A DNA stretch of 64,000 nt from Nitrospira moscoviensis. GTDB lineage: Bacteria; Nitrospirota; Nitrospiria; Nitrospirales; Nitrospiraceae. Where the stretch lies: the NCBI RefSeq assembly GCF_001273775.1, contig NZ_CP011801.1, positions 806,001 to 870,000 of the forward strand, given 5' to 3'. Positions within the stretch are counted from its first letter, which is position 1. Every line of letters starts with the position of its first letter. Of the stretch, positions 6,588-51,691 are shown piece by piece. The notes under the pieces were generated by a model. The model was given only the letters and a program-made list of their open reading frames with translations, was not told where the DNA came from and ran no database searches. Both the position numbers and the translations under genes were made by a program.

Positions 6588-6590
6588 ACG

Positions 6591-27437: not shown

Positions 27438-29915
27438 TCACCATCGATACGCGACGCTTCCGACCACCGTCCGCTGTTCGCCATAGGCGCAAAAATTCGT
27501 GCCGCCGCGGTCGAAGCAGGAGAACGCGTCATGATTGAAAATGTTGGTGACGTTGAGGGCAAATCGGTACTGACGCCACGTATAGTCCAGCATGGCGTCG
27601 CCCACGACGAACCCCGGCACCTTGAAGGTGTTGGCTTCATCAGCATACGTGTTGCCGGTATACCTGGCTCCGGCGCCGAATCCCAAGCCCTTCAGGCTTC
27701 CCTGCAGCACGGTGTACCGGCCCCACAGCGATCCAAATTGCGCCGGCGTCTGTGTGAGGCGGTTACCCTTTTCGACGGGATTGCTCGTCTCGCGTACGTC
27801 GTTGTCCAGCAGAGTATAGGCGGCGATCAGATCGACGCCGGAGTCAAAGCTCGCGACGCCTTCCAATTCTAGACCACGGGAGCGGACCTTCCCCCGTTGC
27901 ACCCGCAGGTTGGTGCTGGGATCCAACTGCACCAGGTTTTCCCGCGTCAGATCGAACACCGCCACGGTCACGAAGCTTCTGGACCCGGGAGCTTGGTACT
28001 TGACGCCCGCTTCATACTGGCGGCCGGTTTCCGGCTTGAAGGCATTGCCGCTCGCGTCAAGTACTATCGAGGGAAGGAAGAACGTCGAATAACTGATGTA
28101 CGGCGCCAGACCGATGTCGAACACGTAGGTCAACGCGGCGCGCCCCGTCGATTTGCTGTCGTCCTGGGGGCTTCTGATTCCCGTGAGATTATCCGTCGTT
28201 TCGTTCCGGGCCCAATCATGTCGGCCGCCGAGCGTGAGCAACCAGCGGTCATACTTGACCTGGTCCTGGACGTACACGCCCGTCTGCAACTGGGTGGTCT
28301 CTTGGTTGAGGCTCAGAAACGGCAAGGGGATGGTCCCCAGGGCGCCGTAATCATAGCGCTCGAACACGTTGATGGACGACGCCAACGCGAAGTCCTGCCT
28401 GGAACGGATGTGGAGGCGCTGAAAATCGACGCCGGTCAACAGCAGATGGTGAAGGGGACCGGTCGCAAAGGCACCGGTGAGTTGATTGTCAAGGGTCACG
28501 GCATTCAACTTGCCGAACACCGCCTGCTGCGCTCGATCCAGCGTGGGCAAGGCCGAGCCTTGAGGGAACCCGAACGTGGAGACGTCGTCCAGCTCGGTGG
28601 AGTTGTAGCGGAATTTCTGAAGGAACCGCCAACTGTCGGTGAAGGAATGGCTCAGTTCGTACCCGACCGAGTGCTCCCGGCGGTTGTACTTGTCGGTGCT
28701 GGGTTGCCCCGCAAAGCGGTGCGGCGACACGGTGCCGAACGGAGTCGTCCGCAGCGTGCCTTCGAACGGGAACGCTTGGGAAAATCCCAAACGGTCTTTT
28801 TGATAGACCGCGAAGAACGTCGCCGCGGTGCTGGGGGCGATCCGCCAGGTCAGAGCCGGGGCGATGTACACGCGGTCGTTGGGTACGTTGTCGATTTGCG
28901 TCCCGCTCTCGCGGAAGAGCCCCGTCAGGCGATACGAGAACAGGTCGCTGTCGTTGAGGCGTCCGCCGAAATCAAACCGGCCTTCGTGCCGGCCGAAGCT
29001 GCCGGTCAAGAACTGCAGCTCATGCAAGGAGTGCTGCGTCGGACGCTTCGAGATGTAGTTCAAGAGACCGCCGGGGCTGCCCTGTCCGTACAAGAAGGAG
29101 GCGGGGCCGCGCAGCACGTCGATCTGTTCGGCGCCGTATGGTTCCAAGTTGTAGCTCACGGCAAACCCGGGGTTGCGCAGCTGGAGCCCGTCTTTGAACA
29201 GGCCTTGCTCCGTGGCATCGAACCCGCGAAAGCGGAGGAAGGTGAACCGCGGCTCGAACCCCACCGGTTCCGCCTGCACGCCCGGCATATAGCGCAAGGC
29301 TTCCGCCAGCGTGTTCACCTCCTGATCGATCATCCGCTTCCGCGTCACGACGCTGATGGATTGCGGCGTCTCGACCAACGGAATGTCCGTTTTCGTCGCC
29401 GTGCGCGTATCGGGCGCGACGTACGATGTGGCGGTATCCCGCTCCCGCGCCTCCTTGATGAGGATCTCCTGCACTTTGATGGGCTTATCGGCCGATGTGG
29501 TGGCGGGGTCCGGCACGGTTTGAGTCGCGTCCGTAGCGGCCGTTGGCGCTACGAGGTTTTCCTTCCGGATCAAGGTCACGGAACGAGGACCCGTCATCCG
29601 GTAGTCCACTGCGGTGCCGGCCAGCAGCAGCCGCAGCCCTTCTTCAGGCGTGTAGCGGCCGGACAGGCCCGCTGTGCGGCGGTCCTCGGTCGTCTCGGCG
29701 CTGTAGAACAATTGCCATCCGCTGGCTTCGGCGAACGCCGTCAGCGCGGTTTGCAAGTCTTGCGGGGGAATCTCGAAGGCCACCGTGTCGGCCTGCGCCA
29801 CGCGGGTCGGCGGACGGTCGGCATGTTCGGCGGCCTCGGCGAATGCACTGGAGACCGTGGTGATCAGGATAAATGCTGCGAGGTTGTATCTCAGTCGGCA
29901 CGAGAATGTCGGCAT
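27438..29915 (-). CDS. TonB-dependent siderophore receptor with STN signalling domain (receptor 1)
   Basis: 825 aa outer-membrane protein. A signal peptide (residues 1-27) is followed by an STN domain (about 46-118, beginning F-E-I-P-P-Q-D-L-Q-T-A-L) that in this class contacts the FecR anti-sigma factor. The plug domain (about 175-290) has P-Q-S-I-S-V-V-T, R-F-R-G-F-D-A-T and V-L-R-G-P-A-S-F-L-Y-G-Q-G-S-P-G-G. A 22-strand barrel ends with the classic aromatic terminus V-A-Y-R-W. The segment ahead of the plug (P-I-K-V-Q-E-I-L-I-K-E-A) resembles the TonB-box region. The ATG has AAGGAG seven to eight bases upstream. It belongs to the sigma-FecR-receptor cassette 31667-27438 and most resembles FpvA/FhuE-type receptors; the siderophore is unknown. 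Confidence 0.94.
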   Translation of the reverse strand: MPTFSCRLRYNLAAFILITTVSSAFAEAAEHADRPPTRVAQADTVAFEIPPQDLQTALTAFAEASGWQLFYSAETTEDRRTAGLSGRYTPEEGLRLLLAGTAVDYRMTGPRSVTLIRKENLVAPTAATDATQTVPDPATTSADKPIKVQEILIKEARERDTATSYVAPDTRTATKTDIPLVETPQSISVVTRKRMIDQEVNTLAEALRYMPGVQAEPVGFEPRFTFLRFRGFDATEQGLFKDGLQLRNPGFAVSYNLEPYGAEQIDVLRGPASFLYGQGSPGGLLNYISKRPTQHSLHELQFLTGSFGRHEGRFDFGGRLNDSDLFSYRLTGLFRESGTQIDNVPNDRVYIAPALTWRIAPSTAATFFAVYQKDRLGFSQAFPFEGTLRTTPFGTVSPHRFAGQPSTDKYNRREHSVGYELSHSFTDSWRFLQKFRYNSTELDDVSTFGFPQGSALPTLDRAQQAVFGKLNAVTLDNQLTGAFATGPLHHLLLTGVDFQRLHIRSRQDFALASSINVFERYDYGALGTIPLPFLSLNQETTQLQTGVYVQDQVKYDRWLLTLGGRHDWARNETTDNLTGIRSPQDDSKSTGRAALTYVFDIGLAPYISYSTFFLPSIVLDASGNAFKPETGRQYEAGVKYQAPGSRSFVTVAVFDLTRENLVQLDPSTNLRVQRGKVRSRGLELEGVASFDSGVDLIAAYTLLDNDVRETSNPVEKGNRLTQTPAQFGSLWGRYTVLQGSLKGLGFGAGARYTGNTYADEANTFKVPGFVVGDAMLDYTWRQYRFALNVTNIFNHDAFSCFDRGGTNFCAYGEQRTVVGSVAYRW

Positions 29916-31781: not shown

Positions 31782-31889
31782 TCACCACCGGTATGCGACG
31801 GTGCCCACCACAGTGCGGCGCTCGCCGAACACGCAGAAGTTGGTGCCGCTGCGGTCGAAGCACGAAAAGGCGTCATGATTGAAGATGTT
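31782..31889 (-). pseudogene. C-terminal scar of a lost TonB-dependent receptor
   Basis: On the minus strand these 108 bases read, in frame and with a stop, N-I-F-N-H-D-A-F-S-C-F-D-R, then S-G-T-N-F-C and on to V-A-Y-R-W. That is the last 35 residues of receptor 1 (27438-29915) with 30 identical positions. Upstream of base 31889 the similarity ends abruptly and the frame does not continue as a receptor. The piece lies between receptor 2 and sigma factor 1, the place where another receptor would end. It is therefore a remnant of a related receptor removed by deletion or cassette exchange. Confidence 0.8.
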
Positions 31890-37550: not shown

Positions 37551-38048
37551 CTACGCGGGCAAGCATGCCGCGCCGGTTCGAGGGGAATCGGCGTCGGCCG
37601 CGAATCGGTGCGCCGCGTCGATGGTCTCGCGCAGCACCGCCAGGTCGTGCTCGACAAAATCATGGCTCACCCTGAGCCGCAGGACGCCGGTCCGATCGAC
37701 GACGATCGTATGACAGCGCAAGGCGGGCTCGACGATCGCCACCCTCAAGGCCCGATGGAGCCGTCCGCCGACGTCCCCGAGGACGGGCGCGCGGGGTTTG
37801 TCTCCGCGCGCGGCCCACAAACGGTGCAACGGGCGGGCGCCGGAGGCCACGATCAGTAACGCGGTGTCGATCTCGTCAAATTCCCGCGCCTGGCGATCGA
37901 TCATCTCCACCGGCAAAAGTCCCGGGTAGGGCAGAAAACAGAGGGCGACCGCTCGCTCCGCATAGCGGACGCCGCGCAGATACGTGAGGGCGCCTTCGAC
38001 CAAGGCCGGGCCGTCCAAGTCCGCCGCGCGAAGATGAGTTCGTGTCAT
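37551..38048 (-). CDS. Peroxiredoxin-fold protein lacking the peroxidatic cysteine
   Basis: 165 aa from the ATG at 38048, preceded by AAAGGAG at seven bases. The layout matches AhpC/TSA thioredoxin-like proteins: a strand A-V-A-L-C-F-L-P, a loop and helix, a strand T-A-L-L-I-V-A-S-G, then R-A-P-V-L-G-D-V-G-G-R-L-H-R-A-L and H-T-I-V-V-D-R-T-G-V-L-R-L. In true peroxiredoxins a Cys follows the first strand inside a P-x-x-x-T-x-x-C loop; here the loop reads P-Y-P-G-L-L-P-V-E and has no Cys. So it is unlikely to be a peroxidase and may bind a ligand or partner. It heads the four-gene minus-strand run behind a Fur-box-like site and a terminator. The fold call is by pattern. Confidence 0.6.
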   Translation of the reverse strand: MTRTHLRAADLDGPALVEGALTYLRGVRYAERAVALCFLPYPGLLPVEMIDRQAREFDEIDTALLIVASGARPLHRLWAARGDKPRAPVLGDVGGRLHRALRVAIVEPALRCHTIVVDRTGVLRLRVSHDFVEHDLAVLRETIDAAHRFAADADSPRTGAACLPA

Positions 38049-38188
38049 GGCAGTTCTCCTTTCGCCGAAACCTTCATTTGTACGGGCCGCGAAACGTCGC
38101 ACAGGTTGTCATTCGACCTTCGTGCGCGACGGCGCCACCGTTGGCCTGAGCGGTGGTACAGCCGGCGCCGGTTTCAACGGCGCACAAT

Positions 38189-38223
38189 AAAAAAAGCCCA
38201 CGGTGCCTTCGGCACCCTGGGCT
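38189..38223 (-). terminator. Intrinsic terminator in the leader of the small-gene run
   Basis: On the minus strand AGCCCA-G-GGTGCC, loop GAA, GGCACC-G-TGGGCT is followed by seven T. The two G form the only mismatch in a 13-bp stem. No gene lies upstream on this strand before the divergent AbrB gene, so the terminator appears to act inside the leader of the 38048 gene rather than after a gene. Confidence 0.7.
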
Positions 38224-38248
38224 CCGGCCGTCAAGACCGCTGGCCTCA
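38219..38248 (-). promoter_or_regulatory. Shared leader element, copy 1
   Basis: Thirty bases overlapping the terminator's 5' arm (minus-strand sense). They match, with one gap, the stretch at 46485-46513: both share GGGCTC, then AAGA and the 12-mer CCGCTGGCCTCA when read on the + strand, and both sit directly against an intrinsic terminator. On the minus strand copy 1 also has GGCC/GGCC arms around AGCGGTCTTGAC. Confidence 0.45.
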
Positions 38249-38299
38249 CGACAAACGCGACACGCCGACGTTACTGTTCTAAACGCAAAGCGTGTAATT

Positions 38300-38318
38300 G
38301 ATACTTACTCTCAATATC
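38300..38318. promoter_or_regulatory. Fur-box-like site upstream of the small-gene run
   Basis: GATACTTACTCTCAATATC agrees with the 19-bp Fur consensus (GATAATGATAATCATTATC) at 13 of 19 positions by hand count, in an AT-rich patch 252 bases upstream of the 38048 start. It could also affect the divergent AbrB promoter. Confidence 0.5.
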
Positions 38319-40003: not shown

Positions 40004-42460
40004 CTAGTAAAACTCCAGCTTGATCGCGCCGAGGACGGTGAGCGGCGCGCCGGGAATGACCGACGTCCGCGACTCCTGCGTCCCTTCGAAGTAGCGCTGG
40101 TCGAGCAGGTTTCTGAAGTTGAGCGACGCGATCAGATTGGTGCGCGGCAAGATCTCTTGCTTCCGGTAATACAGCGCGGCGTCGAGCCGCACGAACCCTG
40201 GAATTTGGAAGGTATTATCGATGTCACCCTGGCGCCGGCCGGCGGCATAGAAGCCGCCGCCGAAGCCGAATCCTTCCAGCATGCCCGATTGGAACGTGTA
40301 CACGCTCCAGAGACTGCCGCTGTGGAGCGGGGCATTGGGCAGCGTGTTGCCCTCGCGCGCGACGGCGTCTCCTCGGCTGATCTCCGCGTCGATGTAGGCA
40401 TAGGTCGCGATGACATCCCACCCGGGAAGCACCCGCCCGGTCACATCCAGCTCCATGCCGCGGCTGCGCTCCTCGCCGGTCTGGATGATGTCGCCGAACG
40501 CCGGCGCGACGCCGGTGAAAAGGAACCGCTGGACGTTTTCCTTCTCGATGTTGAAATAGGCCGCGTTGGCGTAGAGCTTGCCCTCGATCAGCTCCGTTTT
40601 GATCCCGGCTTCGTACTGCCGCGCCGTTTCCGGGGTCGGCAACGTGCCCGCCGGTGTCATGGCCCGGAAGACGCTGAAGTTGTCCAATTGCCGGGCCGAC
40701 TTGCTGTAGTTCGCATAGAGCGAGACCGGCTTGATGGGCTGATAGACCAAGCCGACCATCGGATTGAAGAAGGTGTCCGTCTGCTTGGTCTCCGTGGCCG
40801 CGAGTCGGTCGTCAAAGCGCTGGTCGAAAATGTCAAATCGCGCGCCGAACGTGAGTTTGAGGTCCTTCCTCAGCTCGATCATGTCGGAGGCATAGATGCC
40901 GATGATGTTGTTGGTCAGCGTCCCGTCGAAAAACGTGTTGAACGGATCGACGTTGAAGGAATAGACCGGATTGAAGATGTTCTGCGTCGTCGTCACATTG
41001 GCGAAGTCCACGCGGGTGTTGTGCGTTTCACGCCCCAACTCGATGCCCGTGAGCAGGCGGTGGCCGATCGGTCCGGTCTCAAACTTGCCGATCACCTCGT
41101 TCTGCAGATAATGGCTTTGGACCAGCTGAGGGATGCGGAAGCCGGCCAGAAAGAGGGTCTGGTTGTCGGTGTCGAGGAAGCTCGGCTCGATGCTGTTGTA
41201 ATCTTCGCTGGCCACTGCCGCCCGGAAGGCGGACCGCCAGGCCCAGGTCTCGGAGAATTCATGGCGCAGAATCAGCGTCCCTTTGCCCTGATTGTAGCGG
41301 TTCCGACGCGACGGATCTCCGAGAAACCGGCTGACGGGGATGTCGGCCACGCCGGTGCCGACCGCGAGCAGGCCGCGGTCGATGGGCCTGGTGTCGTACA
41401 GGAATTCGCCTTCGAACAGCAGACTGGTGCGGGTGCCCAGCTGCCAGAGGAAGGTCGGCGCGGCGAAGAAGCGCTCGCTGACCACCAGATCTCTGAAGCT
41501 GTGGGCGTGCTCATAGGCGCCGTTGAAGCGGTACAAGAGGGACTTGTCTCTTGTCAACGGTCCGGAAAAGTCGACAGTCGGCCGGTACAGGTTGTAGCTG
41601 CCGAAGATCATTTCGCCCGCATAATAGGGCGAGCTCAGAGGAGCCTTCGTGATCAGGTTGATGATGCCGCCCGGATCCGTGCGGCCGTACAGGAAGGAGG
41701 CCGGCCCCTTGAGGACCTCGATGCGTTGGAGGTTGGCGACTTCGCGCTGCGTGCGGGACGAAAAGGTGCTGTCGTCGCGAAAGCCGTTCTTGAAGATGTT
41801 CACGTCGGTCGTAAATCCGCGGATGTTGAAACGCTCGGCCCGCCCTCCCGCGCCGTGCGGAATCGATGTCCCGCTCACGTTGCGGATCACGTCCTCGATC
41901 CGCACGGCCTTCCGATCGTCCATCAGCTTGCGGGTGATGATATCGATCGAGAGCGGGGTGTCGCGGAGCGGCGCCGGCAGGCGGGTGGCCGACGACGCCT
42001 CGTCCGCCGCGTAGGTCGTGGCGTCGTCGCGTTCGCGCGCTTCACGGATCAGCACTTCCCGGACCTTGATGGGCTTCTCCGACGCTGCGGCTCCCCCGCC
42101 GGCATCGCCGCTCGTCGCGTCGTCGTCGGTCCGGCTGCTGCGGACCTGCGACCGCTCCAGCGTGGCGGTGTTGACGCCGATCGATTGCCACGAGATGCCG
42201 GTGCCCTTGAGCAGGATGTCCAGGGCTTCCTTGGGCGGATACACGCCGGTGACTGCGGTGGAGGTGAGGCCTTCGACGGTCTCGATTTTGTAGAGCATCT
42301 GCATGCCGCTCTGTGTCGCAAAGGCGTCGAGCGCGCGCGCAAGCGGCTGGGCCGGTATGTCGAAGGGTTTGGCATCGTCCTGCGCGAGCGCGGGCAGGAT
42401 GAGCAGGGTCTGGCACACCAACAGCAACGCTCCGAATCCGATAGAGATAGGCCTCCGCAT
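40004..42460 (-). CDS. TonB-dependent siderophore receptor with STN domain (receptor 3)
   Basis: 818 aa from the ATG at 42460, preceded by GGAG (the frame is open 12 codons further up, but a Fur-box-like site lies there). A signal peptide ends near L-P-A-L-A-Q. The STN domain (about 32-100) begins F-D-I-P-A-Q-P-L-A-R-A-L-D-A-F, followed by a linker with P-I-K-V-R-E-V-L-I-R-E-A, nearly the same as in receptor 1. The plug has F-N-I-R-G-F-T-T-D and V-L-K-G-P-A-S-F-L-Y-G-R-T-D-P-G-G-I-I-N-L. The barrel ends in aromatic K-L-E-F-Y. It is the third member of a sigma-FecR-receptor cassette (44068-40004). Its substrate is probably a ferric siderophore. Confidence 0.93.
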   Translation of the reverse strand: MRRPISIGFGALLLVCQTLLILPALAQDDAKPFDIPAQPLARALDAFATQSGMQMLYKIETVEGLTSTAVTGVYPPKEALDILLKGTGISWQSIGVNTATLERSQVRSSRTDDDATSGDAGGGAAASEKPIKVREVLIREARERDDATTYAADEASSATRLPAPLRDTPLSIDIITRKLMDDRKAVRIEDVIRNVSGTSIPHGAGGRAERFNIRGFTTDVNIFKNGFRDDSTFSSRTQREVANLQRIEVLKGPASFLYGRTDPGGIINLITKAPLSSPYYAGEMIFGSYNLYRPTVDFSGPLTRDKSLLYRFNGAYEHAHSFRDLVVSERFFAAPTFLWQLGTRTSLLFEGEFLYDTRPIDRGLLAVGTGVADIPVSRFLGDPSRRNRYNQGKGTLILRHEFSETWAWRSAFRAAVASEDYNSIEPSFLDTDNQTLFLAGFRIPQLVQSHYLQNEVIGKFETGPIGHRLLTGIELGRETHNTRVDFANVTTTQNIFNPVYSFNVDPFNTFFDGTLTNNIIGIYASDMIELRKDLKLTFGARFDIFDQRFDDRLAATETKQTDTFFNPMVGLVYQPIKPVSLYANYSKSARQLDNFSVFRAMTPAGTLPTPETARQYEAGIKTELIEGKLYANAAYFNIEKENVQRFLFTGVAPAFGDIIQTGEERSRGMELDVTGRVLPGWDVIATYAYIDAEISRGDAVAREGNTLPNAPLHSGSLWSVYTFQSGMLEGFGFGGGFYAAGRRQGDIDNTFQIPGFVRLDAALYYRKQEILPRTNLIASLNFRNLLDQRYFEGTQESRTSVIPGAPLTVLGAIKLEFY

Positions 42461-42475
42461 GGCATCTCCAAGGTT

Positions 42476-42494
42476 GTGAATGAGTCGCATTCTC
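42476..42494. promoter_or_regulatory. Fur-box-like site before receptor 3
   Basis: Read on the minus strand GAGAATGCGACTCATTCAC matches the Fur consensus at 13 of 19 positions by hand count. It ends 16 bases before the receptor 3 ATG, in the 82-base gap after FecR 3, so Fur could block the receptor separately from the sigma factor. Confidence 0.5.
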
Positions 42495-42542
42495 AATGTG
42501 GAAGACGGCCATGGGGCCGTTGTCCCAACCCCCGGCGCGCAG

Positions 42543-43550
42543 CTATTTTCGGCTGATGATGATCTGCCCCGGGCGCCGGGTAATCTCTACGGGCACGATG
42601 GTGGGGAGAGCGAGGAAGAATTCATCGAGGTTGGCGAGAGCGAAGATTCCCTTCACACGCGTGTCACCCAGGGCGGGATCGGCGAGGGTGATGCGGTCGG
42701 AACGGTAGCGATTCAGCTCCTGGATCGCTTGTGTCAGGGTGATGCCGTCGAACAGGACGGCGCCGGTGCGCCACGACGCGATCAAATCGGGAGCGATCGG
42801 TTCCACAGGCCCCCACGTGCCCTGCCGAGTCCACGAGACACGATATCCCCGCTCGACGAACTTTGACGCCGCACGGGGAGGCTCGACTCGAACTGCGCCG
42901 GACGCGACCGCGACGGTCAGCCCATCCGGCTCCCGCCGAACGAGAAACTCGGTTCCGATGTCTTGGATGCGCGTGTCGTCGACCGTCACGTCGAACGGCC
43001 GGCCGGAATCGGACGCGACGGTGAAAAACGCTTCGCCTCGTTCCAGAACGATGTGACGCCCGCTCCACGACAGCCGGGCGGTTCCGGCCGTGTCGGTGTT
43101 GACGTCGATGATCGTTCCGTCGGGAAGCGTGATCGTACGCTGCTCGCCCTTTGCCGTCTGGAACGAGACGGCGGTCACACGCCAGCCTTCCCACCACCAG
43201 GCCGCCGCCAGCGCCAGCACCAGCAGGGCGGTGACCAGCCCGGCAGCGCGCCGTACGCCGGACCGGGCCTTGCGCGACGTCCGGCGCCGCGGACCTGGGG
43301 CGGATCCGCCGCCGGTTTGGCGAGGACGGCGCGTCTCCGCCGGCTCCAGGCGATCCCACAGCGCCTCCATGATCCGGTACTCCCGCCGATGCAGGGCGTC
43401 ACGGTTGAGCCATTCCTCAAACATTCGCTTCTCTTCGGGAGAACAGGCGGGCTCCCGAAGCCGGAGGAACCATCGGATGGCCTCGTTGGAGGCGGTCTGG
43501 CGCTCAATCTGTGAACGAGTCGGCATGCGCGTCATCCGTACTATCGGCAC
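42543..43550 (-). CDS. FecR-family anti-sigma / signal transducer (cassette 3)
   Basis: 335 aa if the GTG at 43550 is used; ATGs at 43535 and 43526 are alternatives and no ribosome site decides. FecR_N: E-A-I-R-W-F-L-R-L-R-E-P and W-L-N-R-D-A-L-H-R-R-E-Y. A basic linker leads to one helix (about 106-122, ending in W-W-W-E-G-W). The periplasmic domain has L-P-D-G-T-I-I-D-V-N-T-D-T-A and G-E-A-F-F-T-V-A-S-D-S-G-R-P-F. The C-terminal subdomain has Q-A-I-Q-E-L-N-R-Y. It starts 2 bases after the sigma factor stop and ends 82 bases before receptor 3. Confidence 0.91.
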   Translation of the reverse strand: MPIVRMTRMPTRSQIERQTASNEAIRWFLRLREPACSPEEKRMFEEWLNRDALHRREYRIMEALWDRLEPAETRRPRQTGGGSAPGPRRRTSRKARSGVRRAAGLVTALLVLALAAAWWWEGWRVTAVSFQTAKGEQRTITLPDGTIIDVNTDTAGTARLSWSGRHIVLERGEAFFTVASDSGRPFDVTVDDTRIQDIGTEFLVRREPDGLTVAVASGAVRVEPPRAASKFVERGYRVSWTRQGTWGPVEPIAPDLIASWRTGAVLFDGITLTQAIQELNRYRSDRITLADPALGDTRVKGIFALANLDEFFLALPTIVPVEITRRPGQIIISRK

Positions 43551-43552
43551 GA

Positions 43553-44068
43553 TTACAAAAACGGTTCGAGCCGCTCCCGGCAGTGCGCCATGGCTTTGCT
43601 GAGATGCCGCTCCACCATGGTGGTTGAAATACCGATCCGCTCGGCGATATCCGCCTGCGTCAGCTGCTCGTAGCGATACAGGACAAATACTTCCCGCCGC
43701 CGCGGGGGCATCGTCGCAATCAGATCTCGCAGCGCGCAGGAGAGTTGCTCGCGCTCCAGTTTCTGATCGGGACGCGGTTGCGGCGACGGGGTATCGACGG
43801 CGTCCGTCAACTCCGTGAGATGCCGGGCCCGCACCTGCCGGCGGCGGACGGAATCCACCGCGAGATTCTTGGCGATCCGGTACAGGAAAGCGCGCGGCTG
43901 TCTCACCGCGTGCGAGTCTTTTGTCGCGAGCAGCCGGACGAAACTATCCTGCGCAACATCCGCCGCGTCATGGGGACAGCGCAGCAGACCGGTCAAGAAC
44001 GAGAGAAGCTCGCGATAATAGTTGGTGAAGGCCCCAAGAGGCCACTCTGCCGAACTCGATGGCGTCAT
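43553..44068 (-). CDS. FecI-type ECF sigma factor (cassette 3)
   Basis: 171 aa from the ATG at 44068; the frame is open far upstream but without sigma homology. Region 2: A-A-D-V-A-Q-D-S-F-V-R-L-L and L-Y-R-I-A-K-N-L-A-V-D-S-V. Region 4: M-P-P-R-R-R-E-V-F-V-L-Y-R and the helix-turn-helix Q-A-D-I-A-E-R-I-G-I-S-T-T-M-V-E-R-H. It resembles FecI/PupI-type factors that control one receptor each. The TonB gene ends 98 bases upstream on the same strand, so cassette 3 may be partly read from the HD-GYP-AraC-TonB operon. Confidence 0.9.
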   Translation of the reverse strand: MTPSSSAEWPLGAFTNYYRELLSFLTGLLRCPHDAADVAQDSFVRLLATKDSHAVRQPRAFLYRIAKNLAVDSVRRRQVRARHLTELTDAVDTPSPQPRPDQKLEREQLSCALRDLIATMPPRRREVFVLYRYEQLTQADIAERIGISTTMVERHLSKAMAHCRERLEPFL

Positions 44069-44166
44069 ACGGTCGGACAACGGTCCTATGGGGAAGACGG
44101 GCGTGCGGCCCGATTCCCCAACCTTCGTTTGGAGAAAAAAATGACGCTGTCGATCTACTGTGACCC

Positions 44167-45069
44167 CTAGTCCAGCCGGTACAGGATGGGGATATGGAGG
44201 GTCACGTCGCTCCGTTCCAACGGATGAGCCAGTTTGACCGGCGCGCAGCGGCGCAGCGTCTCGACGGCGTCCTCGTCGAGGATCGCACGGCCCGAGCTTT
44301 CGAGGACGGCGACATGCGCGAGATCTCCGGTGCTCCGGACGACGACCTGGAGCACCACGGTGCCCTCCCACCGGTTCATGCGCGCGAGGTAGGGGTATCG
44401 CTTCAACTGCTCGACCCGGTCCCACAACGACTGCGCCAGCCAGCCGTAGTCGGGCTGGAGCGCGCGGCTGCGCAAGGCCCGCTCGACGGCCTGGGGACGT
44501 TGCACGACCCGCCGAAGCTCCTCCTCGACCACGTCCTGCGCGAGCGGGGAGGGTTCCATGGGCTCGATTTCGGGAGGCGGCAGCGCGGCCGGGCCCGAGG
44601 CGCCGAGCGGCGTCGCCTCGCGCTGGGGCGGCATGCCGGCAGCCGCCGAGTGTCCGGACGCCGCGTCGCGCCGGGCCGGCGTCCCCTGGTGCGCCACGTT
44701 CGTGTTCGCGGGAAGGGCGCCTTCCTGTAAGGCATCGCGGACGAGCGGCGGCGCCTGGTCCAGGTCGTCGAACGAGGCGCGTGGCTGCGAGTGCAACGCC
44801 TCCATTTCAGCGGGCGACAGGTGATCGAGCGGCGAGTCCGCGACAACGTCGGCGGACGCGAGTGGAGAGGGGACGTCGGCGGCCAGCGGCTCGGGCGGGG
44901 GCGTCCGGCGGACCGCCACGTCCCACCGGAACGTGTCCTGCCGCGGCGGCAGCGTAACGTCCAGCAGCAACGGCGCGGCAGTGCCGAGCGCCAGCGTGTG
45001 GAGGGCGGCCGACACCACCCAACTCCACAGTGAGTCCTGGCTGGACCGCATCGGCGGCACGCGATTCAT
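44167..45069 (-). CDS. tonB: TonB family energy-coupling protein (TonB 1)
   Basis: 300 aa from the ATG at 45069, preceded by GGGAGGAA, and overlapping the AraC stop by 4 bases. An N-terminal membrane helix (about 17-36) is followed by D-T-F-R-W-D-V-A-V. A proline-rich spacer covers about 55-200. The C-terminal TonB domain has L-K-R-Y-P-Y-L-A-R-M-N-R-W-E-G-T-V-V-L-Q-V-V and ends H-I-P-I-L-Y-R-L-D. TonB passes proton-motive energy from ExbB/ExbD to outer-membrane receptors. No exbBD genes adjoin this copy; the only pair is beside TonB 2. Confidence 0.92.
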   Translation of the reverse strand: MNRVPPMRSSQDSLWSWVVSAALHTLALGTAAPLLLDVTLPPRQDTFRWDVAVRRTPPPEPLAADVPSPLASADVVADSPLDHLSPAEMEALHSQPRASFDDLDQAPPLVRDALQEGALPANTNVAHQGTPARRDAASGHSAAAGMPPQREATPLGASGPAALPPPEIEPMEPSPLAQDVVEEELRRVVQRPQAVERALRSRALQPDYGWLAQSLWDRVEQLKRYPYLARMNRWEGTVVLQVVVRSTGDLAHVAVLESSGRAILDEDAVETLRRCAPVKLAHPLERSDVTLHIPILYRLD

Positions 45070-45605
45070 CCGCGTTCCTCCCGGCGGTCGAGGCAGCCCC
45101 GCCGGATGGGGCCCGACAGACAACGCGCCGCCGGCCGGCGGGGCGCTCGGCCCGTCCCTTGCCGAAACAGATGCGGCGAGACGCCGGTCGCCTTCTTGAA
45201 GAAGTGGCTGAACGCGTACTGATCATGGAATCCCAAGGTTTCGGCGATGTCGGCCAGGCGCCCGGGCGAGGACAGCAGCCGGGTGGCCCGTTCCAGGCGG
45301 AGGCGCTTCATATAGCTGGAAAACGGCTCGCCCATGCGAGCGAGGAACCATTCGGAGCAGTATTTCTCCGAATAACCGACGAACCGCGAGAGGTCTTTCA
45401 ACGTCACCCGTCGATGCAGGTTGGCGGCGAGAAAGCTGTGCATCCGGTCCTGCAACGACGGCTCCGGCGGCAGCCGCGCGAACAGGTCGTCGCGCAGGCG
45501 CTCGACGGCGGATCTCAGCCTCTCCCAGGTCTCCATGTCCCAGGCCCGTTCGTCCGGCTGTCTGGTATCGGCCCGCTGCGGTGGTGTCGAAAGCGATGTC
45601 GCCAT
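45066..45605 (-). CDS. AraC-family transcription regulator, short form
   Basis: 179 aa from the ATG at 45605, preceded by GGGGAGAA. The C-terminal two-helix-turn-helix domain is complete: V-T-L-K-D-L-S-R-F-V-G-Y-S-E-K-Y-C-S-E-W-F, then L-R-L-E-R-A-T-R-L-L and I-A-E-T-L-G-F-H-D-Q-Y-A-F-S-H-F-F-K-K-A-T-G. The N-terminal 60 residues hold no cupin sensor domain, so the signal may come from a partner. AraC regulators such as PchR control siderophore uptake; overlap with tonB 1 supports that here, though the target is unknown. Confidence 0.88.
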   Translation of the reverse strand: MATSLSTPPQRADTRQPDERAWDMETWERLRSAVERLRDDLFARLPPEPSLQDRMHSFLAANLHRRVTLKDLSRFVGYSEKYCSEWFLARMGEPFSSYMKRLRLERATRLLSSPGRLADIAETLGFHDQYAFSHFFKKATGVSPHLFRQGTGRAPRRPAARCLSGPIRRGCLDRREERG

Positions 45606-45748
45606 GGTGTTCTCCCCGTCATGTCGAAGCACAAGCTGAAAAAGGCGGCGGGGGGCCTCAGGAGGAAGTGAGGGCCCCCGCCGGGCGAAGTGGGGTGGCA
45701 CGGCCCCACTCCGATGCCGGCGCTTGACGCGACCGGCTGACACGTCGA

Positions 45749-46435
45749 TCACAGTAAACTGAGGTCGCCCACTTCGCGCCCCGCGCCGAGCAGGCGGTAT
45801 AAGAGCTGGACCAGCGCCGGATCGAACTGGCTCCCGGAGGCGACCATCACGATGCGTGCCGCCACCGTATTCCGCCGCTCACGCGATGACACGTCGGGAA
45901 CCTCGATGGCGTCGAACGCATCCGCGATCGCCAAGATTCTGGCCCCGAGCGGAATAAACTCGCCCCGAATACCGTAGGGGTAGCCGGTGCCGTCCCACCG
46001 TTCATGGTGGTGGGCGATGAGAATCGATGCCTCGCGCAAGAACGAAAAGGGTTCGAGCAGATTCGCGCCCAGGCGGGAATGGTTCTGCACGGTCACGTAG
46101 GCCTCCGGTTCCAGCGGTTCGATGGTCCTGCTGAGCCGCGGCGGGAGCATGAGCAGGCCGATATCGTGGAGCAGCGCCGCCAGCTTGATGTCGTGCAACT
46201 CGCCCGCAGCAAGGCCCGCCGCCTGTCCCAGCTTGACGGCGATCCCCGCCGTCCGCCGGCCGTGACCCGCTTGCCAGGGGAGGGCGCGGTCGATCTCTTT
46301 GCCGGCTTGGCGGACCAAGATGCTCTCGACATCGCGGCGCGATGCGGCCGGCAGAGTCAGACGATCGATCTTTGCCAACAGGGCTTGGATTCTGAGGACG
46401 GTCGGATGGACGCGAGGACTGACGGTCGATGGCAT
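45749..46435 (-). CDS. Stand-alone HD-GYP domain protein
   Basis: 228 aa from the ATG at 46435, with GGGAGG eight bases upstream. The HD motif lies at residues 90-91 in A-L-L-H-D-I-G and the GYP signature H-H-E-R-W-D-G-T-G-Y-P at 143-153, followed by L-G-A-R-I-L-A-I-A-D-A-F-D-A. HD-GYP proteins hydrolyse the second messenger cyclic di-GMP. No sensor or receiver domain is attached. It precedes the AraC gene by 143 bases. Only 13 bases separate its start from an upstream intrinsic terminator, so it must be read through that terminator or from a promoter inside it. Confidence 0.88.
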   Translation of the reverse strand: MPSTVSPRVHPTVLRIQALLAKIDRLTLPAASRRDVESILVRQAGKEIDRALPWQAGHGRRTAGIAVKLGQAAGLAAGELHDIKLAALLHDIGLLMLPPRLSRTIEPLEPEAYVTVQNHSRLGANLLEPFSFLREASILIAHHHERWDGTGYPYGIRGEFIPLGARILAIADAFDAIEVPDVSSRERRNTVAARIVMVASGSQFDPALVQLLYRLLGAGREVGDLSLL

Positions 46436-46448
46436 GATGTCGCCTCCC

Positions 46449-46489
46449 AAAAAAGAAAAAGCCCAAGACCACGGTGGTGATCTTGGGCT
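46449..46489 (-). terminator. Intrinsic terminator just ahead of the HD-GYP gene
   Basis: Minus-strand AGCCCAAG, bulge ATC, ACCAC, loop C, GTGGT, CTTGGGCT, then a T-rich run (TTTTTCTTTTTT). It may end the receptor 4 / Com-like transcript, but the ribosome site of the HD-GYP gene abuts the T-run. Confidence 0.75.
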
Positions 46490-46513
46490 CTGGGTGAAGA
46501 ACCGCTGGCCTCA
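46485..46513 (-). promoter_or_regulatory. Shared leader element, copy 2
   Basis: Twenty-nine bases that align with 38219-38248 (one gap): identical GGGCTC, AAGA and CCGCTGGCCTCA blocks read on the + strand. It lies between the stop of the Com-like gene and the terminator stem, that is, in the place of a leader RNA for the HD-GYP gene. Confidence 0.45.
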
Positions 46514-46529
46514 GGGACGTTCGGCTGAC

Positions 46530-46709
46530 TTAATTCGCGTGAACGGGCCACCCTCCGATGCTGGCAAACGGAATAACGAGCAAGCGCCGGCAGCGCTTGC
46601 ACTTGAGCTCCAACCCGCCTTCGACGATCCGCGCCACCAGTTGCCCGCAGTGACAGCGGACTTCTTCCGAGCAGTGGACTTGTGGAGATGTGTTGCTCTT
46701 AGTGGTCAT
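46530..46709 (-). CDS. Com-like zinc-ribbon small protein, second copy
   Basis: 59 aa: M-T-T-K-S-N-T-S-P-Q, then V-R-C-H-C-G-Q-L-V-A-R, G-G-L-E-L-K-C-K-R-C-R-R-L-L-V-I-P-F. It matches the 54-aa protein at 20995-21159 in the C-x-C-G-x-L-V-A-R ... K-C-x-R-C-x-R core and in the following V-x-I-P. The founder of the family, phage Mu Com, is an RNA-binding translational activator. Here the gene lies 54 bases after the receptor 4 stop, behind a perfect hairpin, and is followed by the shared leader element and terminator. It has no strong ribosome site. RNA binding and any antitermination role are inferences. Confidence 0.6.
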   Translation of the reverse strand: MTTKSNTSPQVHCSEEVRCHCGQLVARIVEGGLELKCKRCRRLLVIPFASIGGWPVHAN

Positions 46710-46724
46710 AGAATCTTGTTCGCA

Positions 46725-46753
46725 GGAGGAGGCGACACGAAGTCGCCTCCTCC
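46725..46753 (-). other. Perfect 12-bp hairpin between receptor 4 and the Com-like gene
   Basis: GGAGGAGGCGAC, five-base loop, GTCGCCTCCTCC, the same on either strand. There is no T-run, so it is not a standard terminator. On the minus strand the first arm contains GGAGGAGG, so ribosome binding or RNA stability of the Com-like gene could be affected. Confidence 0.65.
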
Positions 46754-46763
46754 GCCAGGCACC

Positions 46764-49088
46764 TTAGAAATTCCAGCGCGCGCCGGCCTGCACCATCAAG
46801 GGCAGCCCTGCGTAAATGCCGCGCGACCGATCGACGATGAACGTCTGGTCCAGCAGGTTTTTCCCAGTGACGAAGAACGTCGTGTTGATGCTCTTCACGT
46901 ACTGGTTGGCCGCTGCATTGAGGACGCACCAACCCTTGATGACGCCGCGCTGGCCGTTCGGCGTCGGATTCACGGTATTGCGGTCATCCGAGAACATGTC
47001 ACTGATGCACTGCGTTTCCAGACGGGTATTGAAGCCCCAATCCGCATTGGCATAGCCGATGCCCGCTGTGAGCATGTGTTTCGGCGCATAGGTGAGGCGG
47101 TTGCCAGAAATGCTGACAGTCGAGGCTTCACCGGGGAGGAGTGAGATCGCCGAGAGGCTGCTGTTCCGAGTTCCGGTGAACTCGGCTTCCGCCAGCCAGG
47201 TGTAGCTCAAATCCACGAAGAAGTCCTGGCGCGGATCTGCGACACCCTTCATCAAATCCAACAGATCAGCCTTGCCGGCGAATTCAATGCCCTGATGGCG
47301 TGTCTCTCCGGCGTTCGTCAGTGTCGCGCCGGTTCCACCGGCGGCCGACTGTGAAATGATCTGATTATCGAAGTCCATACGGAACAGGGTCGCTTGTGCA
47401 CCTAACCAATAAAGGGGAGTGCTTCGCACGCCGACTTCATAGATCCAGGCCAACTCAGCCTCCAGGTCCACCACCGCGTTATTCAGCTGAATTGCATCAG
47501 AGATTTGCGGCGGAGCAAACCCACGATGGACGCCGGCAAAGAATGTGTAGTCCTTATTGGGCGAATAGGTGGCGCCGATGCCGGGCAACGGCTGAATAAA
47601 CTCGATATCGTTGAAAGCTCCTGTTCCACTTGTGCCGGGAGCCTGTCGGTTTTGCTGAGAATACTTGAAGTATTCTAGCCGTACCCCAGGGGTGACGGTG
47701 AATTTTCCGAATGTCAACCGCTCTTGCAGAAACGCAGCATAGGCGTTCGTCTTTCGTAGGTTATCTTCACCGAGACAGGATTGAGCGTTGGCTCCTCCAA
47801 AGCAGCTTTGTCCAATACCGGATACGAGGTTTCTGAACTGTTGCCGATTGGACTCCTCATACATATAGCGGACGCCGAAGTCAGCGACGGCATCGACCCC
47901 GAAGAGACGATGGACATAGTTGAACCGCGGCTCGACTCCATACACCCAGTATTCACGGGCATTGATGAAACGGCCTGCCGTGGGTAGCGCTCTCGTGGCA
48001 GTTGCCGCAATTGCATTACCGGTATTGAAGGTTGCATTTGCGGTCGTGGGGTCGCCATCCAAATCGGTACTCTGCCTCGACCAGTCACGTTGAATGTAGT
48101 GACCGAAGAAGTTGGTCGTCGATGTCAGATTGGCCGTGAACATGTGGTTGACCGCGACGTGAAATCCGATCCGCCTGAAATCAAAATTGTCGTTTGTAAA
48201 GGGAGTTGTTCGAGGATCGCTGCTGTATTCGCTTTCCGTCAACCCCTGATAGCCGATTCCCGAGTCCTCACGGTAGTAGTTGAACTTGGCGAGGATCTGG
48301 GTGCGCTCGCTCAACTCCTGCACCGTCTTGAACGTCAAGTCGTCCACCTTAGCCCGGATGTTCGTGAAGCGGGGCGTGTCGGACTGATAGTGGAAGTAGT
48401 CGACCATGTAGCCGCTCTTGCCCCACGTCCCGCCGTAATTAAAGTGCGTGTTATAGAAATTCAGATTGCCGCCGAAGAACTGGAAGAAGCCTCCCGGCGT
48501 GGCCGGCGGCATGCGGGTAATCAAGTTCAAGACGCCGCCGACGTTGCTCGGCCCGTACAGCAACTGCCCGCTGCCCTTCAGCAGCTCGATGCGGTCGAAG
48601 CGGAAGATCGGCGGAAAGTAATAGGACGACGGATCGCCGTACGGCATGAGCATGATCGGCACGCCGTCTTCCATGATATGGACCTTCCGGCTGCGTGTCG
48701 GGTCCAGACCGCGAATGGCGATATTGGGGCGGATGCCGAGCCCTTCTTCGTCTCTCACGACGACGCCGGGAATGGGCCGCAGCGCTTCATTGATGGTGAG
48801 GCGGTGGTTGTTGAAGATGCTCTCCTGTGTGACCACATGGCCGGAGCCGGGAATGTGCTCCAGCGCATCGGGCGCGGTGCCGATGATTTCCGTCAGGGGA
48901 ATGTTGATCGGCCGCTCGGGCTGAACAGGGGCTTCCGTCGGGCCGGCCGGAGCCTTGCCCGTTCCACCGGGAACCAGAGCGCCCCGACTTTCCTCCGATT
49001 GCGCCGGCTCTTCGGCATACAGGGCCGAGGGAATTGCCGGCGTCAAGGAGCCAGCAAAGATCAGTAACGATGCGGTGCGTAGCGCCAT
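46764..49088 (-). CDS. FecA-like TonB-dependent receptor without STN domain (receptor 4)
   Basis: 774 aa from the ATG at 49088, which opens directly into a signal peptide (M-A-L-R-T-A-S-L-L-I-F-A-G). An in-frame ATG at 49196 has a stronger ribosome site (GGAGGG), but the 36 codons between hold an AT-rich Fur-box-like and promoter-like stretch, so I prefer 49088. The plug has I-P-L-T-E-I-I-G-T-A-P, R-P-N-I-A-I-R-G-L-D-P-T-R-S-R-K-V and L-L-K-G-S-G-Q-L-L-Y-G-P-S-N-V-G-G-V-L-N-L-I-T. The R-x-R-K-V-x-I-M-E-D-G segment is typical of FecA-type ferric citrate receptors. The barrel ends A-G-A-R-W-N-F. With no STN domain it cannot use the FecR route. Confidence 0.92.
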   Translation of the reverse strand: MALRTASLLIFAGSLTPAIPSALYAEEPAQSEESRGALVPGGTGKAPAGPTEAPVQPERPINIPLTEIIGTAPDALEHIPGSGHVVTQESIFNNHRLTINEALRPIPGVVVRDEEGLGIRPNIAIRGLDPTRSRKVHIMEDGVPIMLMPYGDPSSYYFPPIFRFDRIELLKGSGQLLYGPSNVGGVLNLITRMPPATPGGFFQFFGGNLNFYNTHFNYGGTWGKSGYMVDYFHYQSDTPRFTNIRAKVDDLTFKTVQELSERTQILAKFNYYREDSGIGYQGLTESEYSSDPRTTPFTNDNFDFRRIGFHVAVNHMFTANLTSTTNFFGHYIQRDWSRQSTDLDGDPTTANATFNTGNAIAATATRALPTAGRFINAREYWVYGVEPRFNYVHRLFGVDAVADFGVRYMYEESNRQQFRNLVSGIGQSCFGGANAQSCLGEDNLRKTNAYAAFLQERLTFGKFTVTPGVRLEYFKYSQQNRQAPGTSGTGAFNDIEFIQPLPGIGATYSPNKDYTFFAGVHRGFAPPQISDAIQLNNAVVDLEAELAWIYEVGVRSTPLYWLGAQATLFRMDFDNQIISQSAAGGTGATLTNAGETRHQGIEFAGKADLLDLMKGVADPRQDFFVDLSYTWLAEAEFTGTRNSSLSAISLLPGEASTVSISGNRLTYAPKHMLTAGIGYANADWGFNTRLETQCISDMFSDDRNTVNPTPNGQRGVIKGWCVLNAAANQYVKSINTTFFVTGKNLLDQTFIVDRSRGIYAGLPLMVQAGARWNF

Positions 49089-49144
49089 CGTCCGCCAAGT
49101 ACGCGGCGGACGGGAGAGCCCGCCGCCTCGCCGTAATAGATAAT

Positions 49145-49163
49145 GTAAATAAGAACTATTCTC
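49145..49163. promoter_or_regulatory. Fur-box-like site before receptor 4
   Basis: GTAAATAAGAACTATTCTC matches the Fur consensus at 12 of 19 positions by hand count. It shares the AATAGTTCT core (minus strand) with the site before exbB (51721-51739). It overlaps a TTGAGA hexamer that could be a -35 box on the minus strand. Confidence 0.5.
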
Positions 49164-49348
49164 AAAATCAAGACCGGATTGATCGCTGCTGCCCATAACC
49201 CTCCCTCCTGTCGTTACCGGATGATTAAAGAAGAGACTGTGGCGCGGCCCACCCGCGCCCACGATGAGGCGAGAAGAACGCCGACGAGACGGTACGGCAC
49301 ACTCGAGTCCATCATTCCCCACTCACACCAGGGAGACGCGCAATCCGA

Positions 49349-49397: not shown

Positions 49398-49847
49398 CTA
49401 CTTGAACACGACCTTCTTCAAACCACCGACGGGCAAATCCACCTCACCGAAGTCCGACTCGCCCTTGAAGCTGCCTTTGATCGCCAGGCCGAATTCGCCC
49501 GTCTTGCCGTTGGTCAACGTGATCGCCAGGGTTGGCAGCGAGCCGTCGGCCGCCGGCTTCACGTCGATCTGCTTGATGTTGTCGAACTTGACGTTCACGG
49601 TGGCCGTGCCCTTCTTCACTGGGACATGGCGCAGTTCATGGGGCACGAAGGCGGTCTCGCTGACCTTTTCTTCCCAGTAGAACATCACGTTCTTGATCTC
49701 GGTTTCGACGCCCTGAGCGTCCGTCGCCGTGGCCTGGAATTGCCGCTCGTTCTTCGGCTGGGCCAAGGCCGTGGTCAGGAGCGAAGCCGAGAAGACGAGG
49801 ACTGTGGCTGCGATACCGGCGAGTTGAACGAGTCGGCGAAACGTCAC
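49398..49847 (-). CDS. Secreted protein with the S-D-F-G-E-V-D-L-P-V tail, long form
   Basis: 149 aa from the GTG at 49847, which follows AGGAGGGG by six bases; an ATG at 49871 would overlap the tonB 2 stop. A signal peptide (about residues 4-29, ending T-A-L-A-Q) directs export. A beta-rich middle is followed by L-T-N-G-K-T-G-E-F-G-L-A-I, then G-S-F-K-G-E-S-D-F-G-E-V-D-L-P-V-G-G-L-K, matching the tail of the 104-aa protein at 21356-21670. It is the fourth gene of exbB-exbD-tonB 2-this, so it may assist the TonB system or be a periplasmic ligand-binding piece. No known family recognised. Confidence 0.8.
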   Translation of the reverse strand: MTFRRLVQLAGIAATVLVFSASLLTTALAQPKNERQFQATATDAQGVETEIKNVMFYWEEKVSETAFVPHELRHVPVKKGTATVNVKFDNIKQIDVKPAADGSLPTLAITLTNGKTGEFGLAIKGSFKGESDFGEVDLPVGGLKKVVFK

Positions 49848-49870
49848 GGTACACCCCTCCTGTTCTGTCA

Positions 49871-50905
49871 TCAGCGCAGCGAGTATCCGACCGGAACCAA
49901 CAGCGCCACCTGGCTCTTGCCCAACGGATGCTTCAGTTGAATGGGCGACACCTGCCGGATGAGCTCCATGGCGTCATTGTCGAGGACCGAGTGGCCCGAG
50001 CTCTCGGCGATCTGCAGGCTCACGACATGCCCGTCGTCGCGCACCACCGCTTTGACGATCACCTTGCCCTCCCAGCGATTCAGGCGGGCGGTGTAGGGAT
50101 ACCGTTTGGACCGCTCCAGCCGGGCCAGCAACTCTTGGGTGAGCCACGAATAGTCCACCTTCGTCTGAGCCGTCACCACCGCCGGGCGTTCCACGGCCTG
50201 GGGCTGGGCGGGGGCCGCGTGGACGATCTGCTGGACGGGCGCGGGCGCTTCCACGGCGTCCACCGCCGATTGCTCGACGACCGCCTGTCGAACGGGCGCG
50301 GGGGCTTGCCCCACCACCGGTTGCGATGTCATGACCGGGGAGGGGCGCTCACTCGTCACTTCGGAGACGATCGGGGCGGGTTCGGCCTGCACGGTGTGGG
50401 TGACCGGGGCCGGCGTCGACACGGCGGCCACCGGCGTGGTCTCGACGGTCTCCACCTTCTGGACGGCTTCGCTCCGCTGGACCGCCTGTTGCGTCTGCTG
50501 GATCGGCTCCGCATGCTGGGCGATCGTTTCCACCACGGGGGTGACGTGATTTTGCACCGCCACCTGTTCCTGCCGGACGATGCGCTGGACGCGCTCGACC
50601 GTTTGCACGGTCTGCACGCGCTGGACGACCGGTTGCGCTTCCACCGGCTTCGGCGGAGCGGGCGGCGGCTGGACTGCAGGCTTGGGCTTGGGCGGCGCGG
50701 GAGTGGGCTGCGCCTCCGGAGCCGGCGGTGTCACGTGCGCGAGCGCAATGTCCCACCGAAACGGCTCGGGCTGAGGCGCCGGCTTCAATTCCGCGAACAG
50801 GAACAGGGACACGGCCAGCGCCAGCATATGAACCATCAGAGAGGCCATCCAGCCGTGGGGCTGGTGTGTCGACTGTCCCATCTGCGCGATGGCCGCCGCC
50901 GTCAT
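49871..50905 (-). CDS. tonB: TonB family energy-coupling protein (TonB 2)
   Basis: 344 aa, overlapping the exbD stop by 4 bases. A membrane helix (about 19-41) precedes F-R-W-D-I-A-L-A. A proline-alanine-lysine stretch (about 58-90) comes next, and then an unusual spacer, about 90-250, built of Val, Gln, Thr and Glu (V-Q-R-V-Q-T-V-Q-T-V-E-R-V-Q type). The TonB domain has L-E-R-S-K-R-Y-P-Y-T-A-R-L-N-R-W-E-G-K-V-I-V and ends V-P-V-G-Y-S-L-R. With its own ExbB and ExbD it forms a complete energy unit. The spacer probably spans the periplasm in an extended form. Confidence 0.94.
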   Translation of the reverse strand: MTAAAIAQMGQSTHQPHGWMASLMVHMLALAVSLFLFAELKPAPQPEPFRWDIALAHVTPPAPEAQPTPAPPKPKPAVQPPPAPPKPVEAQPVVQRVQTVQTVERVQRIVRQEQVAVQNHVTPVVETIAQHAEPIQQTQQAVQRSEAVQKVETVETTPVAAVSTPAPVTHTVQAEPAPIVSEVTSERPSPVMTSQPVVGQAPAPVRQAVVEQSAVDAVEAPAPVQQIVHAAPAQPQAVERPAVVTAQTKVDYSWLTQELLARLERSKRYPYTARLNRWEGKVIVKAVVRDDGHVVSLQIAESSGHSVLDNDAMELIRQVSPIQLKHPLGKSQVALLVPVGYSLR

Positions 50906-51276
50906 GACCGCACGACCTCCAGGCTCACTTGATGGAATCCCAGCCCCCGCACGTCGTCCACCACGTTCACGAAGCGTTCGAGCACCGTGACGCGGTCCGC
51001 GCGCACCAGCACCAACGATTCGCGCGGATGGGCGGTCAACTGGACCTTCAAGGCGTCCTGCGTCACGGCCTGGTCGTTCAAGAACAAACCGCCGTCGGCC
51101 GCCAGCGTGATGACCAGCGGGACGTCCTTCCGATCGCCGGCCTCCTTGGCCTTCGCCAAGTCGACCGGGATATGGCCGGTCGTGATGAACGTGGCCGTCG
51201 TCAGGACGATGACCAGCAGGACGAGCATCACGTCCACCAACGGAATGACGTTGATCTGATCGAGCTCACGTTCCAT
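50902..51276 (-). CDS. exbD: ExbD proton-channel subunit
   Basis: 124 aa. N-terminal M-E-R-E-L-D-Q-I-N-V-I-P-L-V-D-V-M-L-V-L-L-V-I holds the essential aspartate of the single helix (D15). A periplasmic domain follows with D-G-G-L-F-L-N-D-Q-A-V and V-L-V-R-A-D-R-V-T. It works with ExbB to turn proton flow into force on TonB. It starts inside the last 11 bases of exbB and overlaps tonB 2 by 4 bases. Confidence 0.94.
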   Translation of the reverse strand: MERELDQINVIPLVDVMLVLLVIVLTTATFITTGHIPVDLAKAKEAGDRKDVPLVITLAADGGLFLNDQAVTQDALKVQLTAHPRESLVLVRADRVTVLERFVNVVDDVRGLGFHQVSLEVVRS

Positions 51277-51691
51277 GTTGCACTTTGTACAGGGTCAACA
51301 GTTCCGACACGCGCCGGCGCAGGACGTTGTTCATCACCACGCAGGGGATCGCGACGAGCAGGCCGACGGCCGTGGCCTTCAGCGCGAGGCTCAAGCCGAT
51401 CATGATGGTATTGACCGCCATCTGGCCGGTGGTGCCCATCGTGTGGAACGTCAGCATGATGCCCAGCACGGTGCCCAGCAGGCCGATATAGGGCGCGTTG
51501 GCCGCCACGGTGCCGATGACGACCAACCGGCGCGTCAGCGCGATTTCAAACACTTGTTGGTTGGGGAATTCTTTGAGATTGACGCGGCGATAGTACAGCC
51601 AGCGCTCGACGGCGATGGCGACGCACCACACACTCAGCGCAAAAAGAAGCCCGATGACGCCGTAATCGACGGCGTGTTTGAGAGAATCCAT
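51266..51691 (-). CDS. exbB: ExbB/TolQ-type proton-channel subunit
   Basis: 141 aa, a short TolQ/ExbB-family protein with three helices. Conserved parts: E-R-W-L-Y-Y-R-R near residue 29, A-P-Y-I-G-L-L-G-T-V-L-G-I-M at about 65-78, and G-L-S-L-A-L-K-A-T-A-V-G-L-L-V-A-I-P at about 98-115. This is the first gene of the exbB-exbD-tonB operon; a Fur-box-like site lies 30-48 bases upstream of its start. Confidence 0.92.
   Translation of the reverse strand: MDSLKHAVDYGVIGLLFALSVWCVAIAVERWLYYRRVNLKEFPNQQVFEIALTRRLVVIGTVAANAPYIGLLGTVLGIMLTFHTMGTTGQMAVNTIMIGLSLALKATAVGLLVAIPCVVMNNVLRRRVSELLTLYKVQHGT

Follow-up and report, generated by a model that had tools for sequence, protein, structure and literature searches.

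Transcription of an HD-GYP gene of Nitrospira moscoviensis has to pass an intrinsic terminator standing immediately in front of it, and the question that this locus raises is how the genes behind that terminator are reached and what decides the passage. The window, i.e., the whole stretch of DNA analysed, comprises 64,000 nucleotides of the 4.59-Mb genome. On its minus strand, the locus contains the following features, given in the order of transcription:

49398–51691, minus strand: ExbB, ExbD and TonB genes and a 157-aa gene, upstream of the FecA-like receptor gene and on the same strand (ExbB and ExbD assigned by tblastn with annotated genes of the related locus L087, TonB by Pfam)
46764–49322, minus strand: TonB-dependent, FecA-like receptor gene upstream of com (Pfam Plug and TonB_dep_Rec)
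46725–46753, minus strand: perfect 12-bp hairpin between receptor and com, GGAGGAGGCGAC, loop TTCGT, GTCGCCTCCTCC
46530–46709, minus strand: open reading frame of a Com-like zinc-ribbon protein of 59 aa (com)
46453–46510, minus strand: element E1, core GGCCAGCGG-loop-CCCAGAGCCC fused to an intrinsic terminator (69.9 bits with covariance model R1; covariation)
46458–46491, minus strand: stem-loop of the intrinsic terminator, followed by TTTTTCTTTTTT (folding energy -23.8 kcal/mol)
45749–46435, minus strand: HD-GYP gene, the first behind the terminator (Pfam HD_5, E 1.8e-33; motif HHHERWDGTGYP)
45066–45752, minus strand: AraC-type regulator gene, start uncertain (Pfam HTH_18)
44167–45123, minus strand: TonB gene, longest open reading frame, the true start lying further downstream (Pfam TonB_C)
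43553–44425, minus strand: FecI-type ECF sigma factor gene, longest open reading frame, with the sigma domain beginning near residue 130 (Pfam Sigma70_r2/r4_2, NCBIfam)
42543–43550, minus strand: FecR-type anti-sigma regulator gene (Pfam FecR)
40004–42496, minus strand: open reading frame of a TonB-dependent receptor-like protein, at the end of the putatively gated operon

The order of hairpin, Com-like gene, 29-base element and terminator given by a preliminary description of this DNA is thus confirmed and mapped to coordinates. The receptor gene upstream of com, whose best NCBIfam match is FecA with a score under the family cut-off, ends with a stop codon at 46766–46764, and the conserved core GGCCAGCGGTTCTTCACCCAGAGCC of E1 begins at 46510, 3' of the Com-like frame. 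Between the T-run of the terminator and the ATG of the HD-GYP gene (46435) there are exactly 13 bases, GGGAGGCGACATC, which hold the ribosome site and nothing else, and because of this short gap there is no space for a promoter 3' of the terminator, as had been proposed. The AraC, TonB, FecI-type sigma, FecR and receptor-like genes downstream of HD-GYP overlap or are closely spaced; the last of them resembles the other receptors of the window and those of relatives (by tblastn, with no Pfam assignment for this gene). Two further observations concern the surroundings. The 157-aa protein (49398–49871, minus strand), which has no match in Pfam or NCBIfam, is conserved in many relatives between TonB and com or receptor, and the stretch 31785–31889 (minus strand), which sits behind the neighbouring receptor gene order, shares 86% identity with the last 35 residues of the receptor encoded at 27441–29915 and is possibly a duplication scar.

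The perfect 12-bp hairpin had also been counted as part of the system. No T-run follows it (46753–46725, minus strand). Eight relatives in which com follows the receptor gene were compared: six show some stem-loop in the gap, of unrelated sequence, and the other two have a receptor stop that overlaps the start of com. As its sequence is not conserved and the hairpin is missing in two relatives (L036 and L081), it was rejected as a component of the switch.

The 29-base element, in turn, proved to be real: together with the terminator it forms a copy of the conserved RNA motif E1, composed of GGCCA-R-M, a small covarying hairpin and CC-R-GAGCCC, the GAGCCC end doubling as the 5' arm of the terminator. 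The pattern GGCCA-R-M-[GGNN-loop-NNCC]-R-GAGCCC occurs over 50 times in the loci around Com-like genes, nearly always continuing into a terminator; an earlier form of the pattern did not fit the window copy, which differs from it by one base in the spacer. In 32 aligned copies, chosen by a pattern that fixes GGCCA and GAGCCC, which by itself accounts for part of the constancy of these letters, 94.1% of the cells are paired, compared with 77.2% after shuffling and at most 46% when slid, and the covariation score is 0.504 versus 0.172 shuffled. Variants of GGCCA and GAGCCC are seen in distant loci. The register of the inner stem differs among copies, the window type GGU/ACC lying one base off the GGAC/GUCC type, and the closing pairs are compensated between classes (GGC/GCC 24, GAC/GUC 15, GGC/GUC 7, AGC/GUC 1; GAC/GCC, allowed by the pattern, is not seen), this variation spanning two element classes and so representing few independent events. 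With R1, whose training set includes it, the window copy reaches E 6.5e-14 in the whole genome. At E<=0.01, 45 of 59 relatives have R1 matches, of which a few are marginal, and the genome itself contains three copies, all within the window, the other two being:

38188–38245, minus strand: second E1 with terminator, in the leader of the gene at 37554–38048 (R1 62.1 bits)
20866–20953, minus strand: third E1, behind a second Com-like gene, with a long, branched terminator part (R1 34.5 bits)

The genes that follow E1 belong largely to one functional context. In the window and related loci, 93 copies were tallied by the next gene within 700 nt: HD-GYP 33, FecI 9, ExbB 9, com 6, receptor 5, TonB 4, w165 4, AraC 3, porin 2, and 18 other or unnamed. 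All named downstream neighbours lie on the same strand as the element, and a start codon is found at most 60 nt behind it in 40 of the 68 copies with a detectable start. Most copies that do not come immediately after a gene have a Fur-like box upstream, scored against a general Fur-box consensus and typically at a distance of 50 to 80 nt; the second E1 of the window has such a box (14/19, GATATTGAGAGTAAGTATC) 73 nt upstream. At this second site (38188–38318, minus strand), the Fur-like box and the E1 with its terminator are followed by a 165-aa gene of unknown family, which recurs with FecI-FecR-receptor operons.

Partial terminators within operons are common, and the structure in front of HD-GYP might be an ordinary, constitutive one that lowers distal expression, its conserved sequence reflecting shared ancestry of the spacer; the many copies that precede HD-GYP genes in related operons would be compatible with this. 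Nevertheless, GGCCA and CC-R-GAG remain constant next to a terminator stem that is free to vary, with compensating changes, E1 also stands before unrelated genes, and a plain terminator would have no need of a covarying hairpin upstream, all of which makes this explanation very improbable. E1 overlaps the arm of an intrinsic terminator, which is the architecture of protein-dependent attenuation, and the proposal that read-through of an attenuator gates this operon is supported by a conserved, covarying element lying on the terminator and preceding many genes of one regulon, and by the gap to HD-GYP, which holds the ribosome site alone.

As regards the protein, the Com-like frame is a genuine, conserved gene, with homologues in 41 of 59 close relatives and, by profile search, in 110 of the 296 genomes of the phylum (a single-protein scan of genome contigs gave one locus and was replaced by whole-genome searches). 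The family core reads RCxCGxLxA...E[LIV]KCxRCxR, and the invariant cysteines 19, 21, 37 and 40, arranged as CxC...CxxC, are putative metal ligands of a zinc ribbon, as expected of a Com protein. The predicted fold has four strands, with a pLDDT of about 89 across residues 21–50; searches with this fold (best E 0.46) and of the PDB by sequence (one match at E 0.028) were not informative. The window protein matches PHROG 6417, 'translational regulator', with E 1.7e-4, as do 26 of 27 family members (best 1.1e-6), and 23 of 27 match gpCom (best 5.2e-4). The Pfam family PF10122 (Zn_ribbon_Com) gives weak matches in six of the 27 members (best E 1.1e-4) and none to the window protein at its gathering score, nor did the Pfam and NCBIfam search of this protein return any match; Mu Com aligns to the family profile with 18.7 bits in a one-sequence search, whose E-value is not a database E-value. 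Since the window protein misses the Pfam cut-off, we do not call it a member of Pfam's Com family, and the sequences are best described as those of a distant relative of phage Mu Com lying outside that family. The window has a second member:

20998–21153, minus strand: homologous part of a second Com-like gene, start uncertain

This gene and its own E1 (20866–21153, minus strand) recur in several relatives before an AraC-type gene. In a genome in which no Com-like gene was detected, one locus (L133; L123) has a small CxxC...CxxC frame, CQRCHEPIGHQNPTLWCIKCRC, about 1200–1500 upstream of an E1 at 2726, which could be a divergent Com-like relative.

Gene and element occur together across the phylum. 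Counted by hand from the gene list and the element list, the 296 genomes divide into 93 with both, 17 with the gene only, six with E1 only and 180 with neither and, by genus, into 22, 12, 2 and 99, respectively (Fisher p 5e-51 for genomes and 1e-14 for genera, both inflated by shared ancestry). Some com-bearing genomes are without a clear E1. The two strong cases of an element without com (G019 and G162) were rejected as exceptions, given that each has a 100-N gap at the position that com occupies in relatives, and so was one of com without E1 (G034), where a stretch of N covers E1 and the terminator arm is still visible. In another family, two genomes of the same genus have both (G211) or neither (G266), and in distant families (L148, L149, L150, L156) the element still lies a few tens of bases behind com. 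The gene order com, element, then HD-GYP or porin recurs, so that the Com-like gene stands directly upstream of the gene that it would regulate. At several distant loci, com and element precede an operon of porin, ApbE, FMN_bind and membrane protein genes. This operon recurs phylum-wide (L149, L150, L155, L157, L158, L160, L161), led by or beside a Com-like gene, and it may be asked whether it serves flavin-dependent iron reduction or electron transfer.

A binding site has been described for the Com zinc finger of a Haemophilus sputorum Mu-like prophage, for which SELEX gave NGAGNNCC(N)2-3GAGNNCCNN, and its authors propose that Com reads CC(N)2-3GAG in a hairpin, the GA being crucial (PMC6483171). 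The published site, GAGNNCC-N2-3-GAGNNCC, is found exactly in six of 89 com-downstream regions (0.05 expected), five of them among the 20 regions of a sister family with tandem hairpins such as GAGGACCATAGAGTCCC and GAGGGCCTCTGAGTCCC (0.05 expected from shuffles) and the sixth in L149, and with loosened spacers it fits 34 of the 89, where shuffles predict about 0.5 and control windows 0.9; this comparison was made on mutually related regions whose sequences had already been inspected, and the loosening is post hoc. On the opposite strand of these regions, no loosened site was found. E1, including the window copy, has CC-R-GAG only, with a spacer of one base rather than the two or three of the published site. 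At many Nitrospira loci a terminator-less element, E2 (GAGACCATCGAGTCCC; class GRCCAGAGACCNNCGAGTCCCGAGTC), lies between com and the porin gene, for example:

6572–6598 of related locus L089, plus strand: E2 between com and porin gene

E2 precedes the ribosome site by about 20 nt, matching the layout of Mu com-mom; by eye, there is no obvious conserved hairpin in it that would sequester the ribosome site.

Since E1 is conserved, overlaps a terminator, occurs in leaders that follow Fur-like boxes and is also found far from any com gene, it might instead be a small riboswitch sensing a metabolite or a metal, with the Com-like gene just another member of the regulon. Such a sensor would have to work with only about 26 conserved bases and a tiny internal loop, and a search of the window and of six related loci against Rfam 15 yielded nothing at the gathering score; a protein ligand is indicated by the tight co-occurrence and adjacency with com and by the resemblance to the site published for Com, and we regard a riboswitch as unlikely. 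These sequence relationships strongly suggest that the Com-like protein recognises E1. The role that the preliminary description gave to this protein gains indirect support from co-occurrence, adjacency and motif likeness.

In our preferred reading, the feature is an attenuator of an iron/TonB regulon, controlled by the Com-like protein acting as an antiterminator, to which we assign a probability of roughly 60%. A promoter with a Fur-like box would start the transcript, so that an iron-controlled promoter would be followed by a protein-gated leader, every regulated leader or intergenic gap carrying an E1 whose GAGCCC end is the 5' arm of a terminator. Because the GAG of the putative site is the first part of this arm, the folded element and the terminator are mutually exclusive, and so would be binding and termination. 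The E1 core of the window folds with -4.3 kcal/mol, and two other cores with about -7, against -23.8 for the terminator; the core being so much weaker, a binder would have to act during transcription. The Com-like protein, encoded in that operon or in a sister operon, may bind CC-R-GAG beside the small hairpin and stabilise the short GGC:GCC closing stem, keeping GAGCCC out of the terminator, whereupon the polymerase would read through into HD-GYP-AraC-TonB-FecI-FecR-receptor and, at E1 copies elsewhere, into ExbB, FecI and other operons. For E2, the expected level of action is translation, as in Mu com-mom, and the signal may be nothing more than the iron-controlled abundance of the Com-like protein.

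The same binding could also promote termination, the protein serving feedback repression, and the adjacency of E1 to com in many loci is what an autoregulatory site would display. The putative site, however, overlaps the 5' arm of the terminator, so that a bound protein is expected to block it, and binding by Mu Com has been reported to destabilise an inhibitory stem (PMC6483171). We hold this to be somewhat less probable than even the riboswitch, and infer antitermination as the direction of control. Taken as a whole, the earlier interpretation is partly supported. The link that it drew from a receptor to cyclic di-GMP and TonB supply is included in the present reading, and its scope was too narrow, as ExbB, FecI, TonB and receptor operons are also covered. 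The wider statement, that a chromosomal protein of the Com family antiterminates a multi-operon iron/TonB regulon of Nitrospirota through E1, E2 and the tandem hairpins, gating receptor, TonB, ECF sigma and HD-GYP genes together, and that Mu Com is kin to a cellular RNA system, we consider slightly better than evenly poised.

Nitrospira is important for nitrification. In the literature searched, the coverage of which is incomplete, we found no description of the E1/Com-like system, and the results suggest that it is an undescribed, protein-controlled on/off gate for a gene set. If so, a protein family and an RNA element would be added to those known in bacterial transcription attenuation, chromosomal Com-like proteins would acquire a cellular function, and an RNA-level gate would stand behind the Fur-like promoters of Nitrospira iron-uptake operons, with HD-GYP, a probable c-di-GMP phosphodiesterase, sharing this gate with the receptor and the TonB supply.

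The putatively gated operon is reminiscent of FecI-FecR-FecA in having a FecI-like sigma factor, FecR and a TonB-dependent receptor, and goes beyond it with an attenuator, a Com-like gene and an HD-GYP gene in the same transcription unit. In the case of LicT/SacY-RAT, ANTAR and TRAP, a short RNA element overlaps a terminator arm and a trans-acting protein decides between the two structures (PMC3369936, PMC3913778); E1 overlaps the terminator arm in a like manner, with the decision by a protein proposed here from sequence, whereas the protein family, the RNA element and the genes are different. A likeness in components is also seen with com-mom of Mu and Mu-like prophages, in which a small zinc-ribbon protein is also encoded directly upstream of its target and the RNA sites have GAG and CC in small hairpins. 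Unlike com-mom, the present system is chromosomal, has several unlinked targets per genome and has its element fused to a transcription terminator; its targets are iron, TonB and HD-GYP genes rather than DNA modification, and the similarity in sequence is distant.
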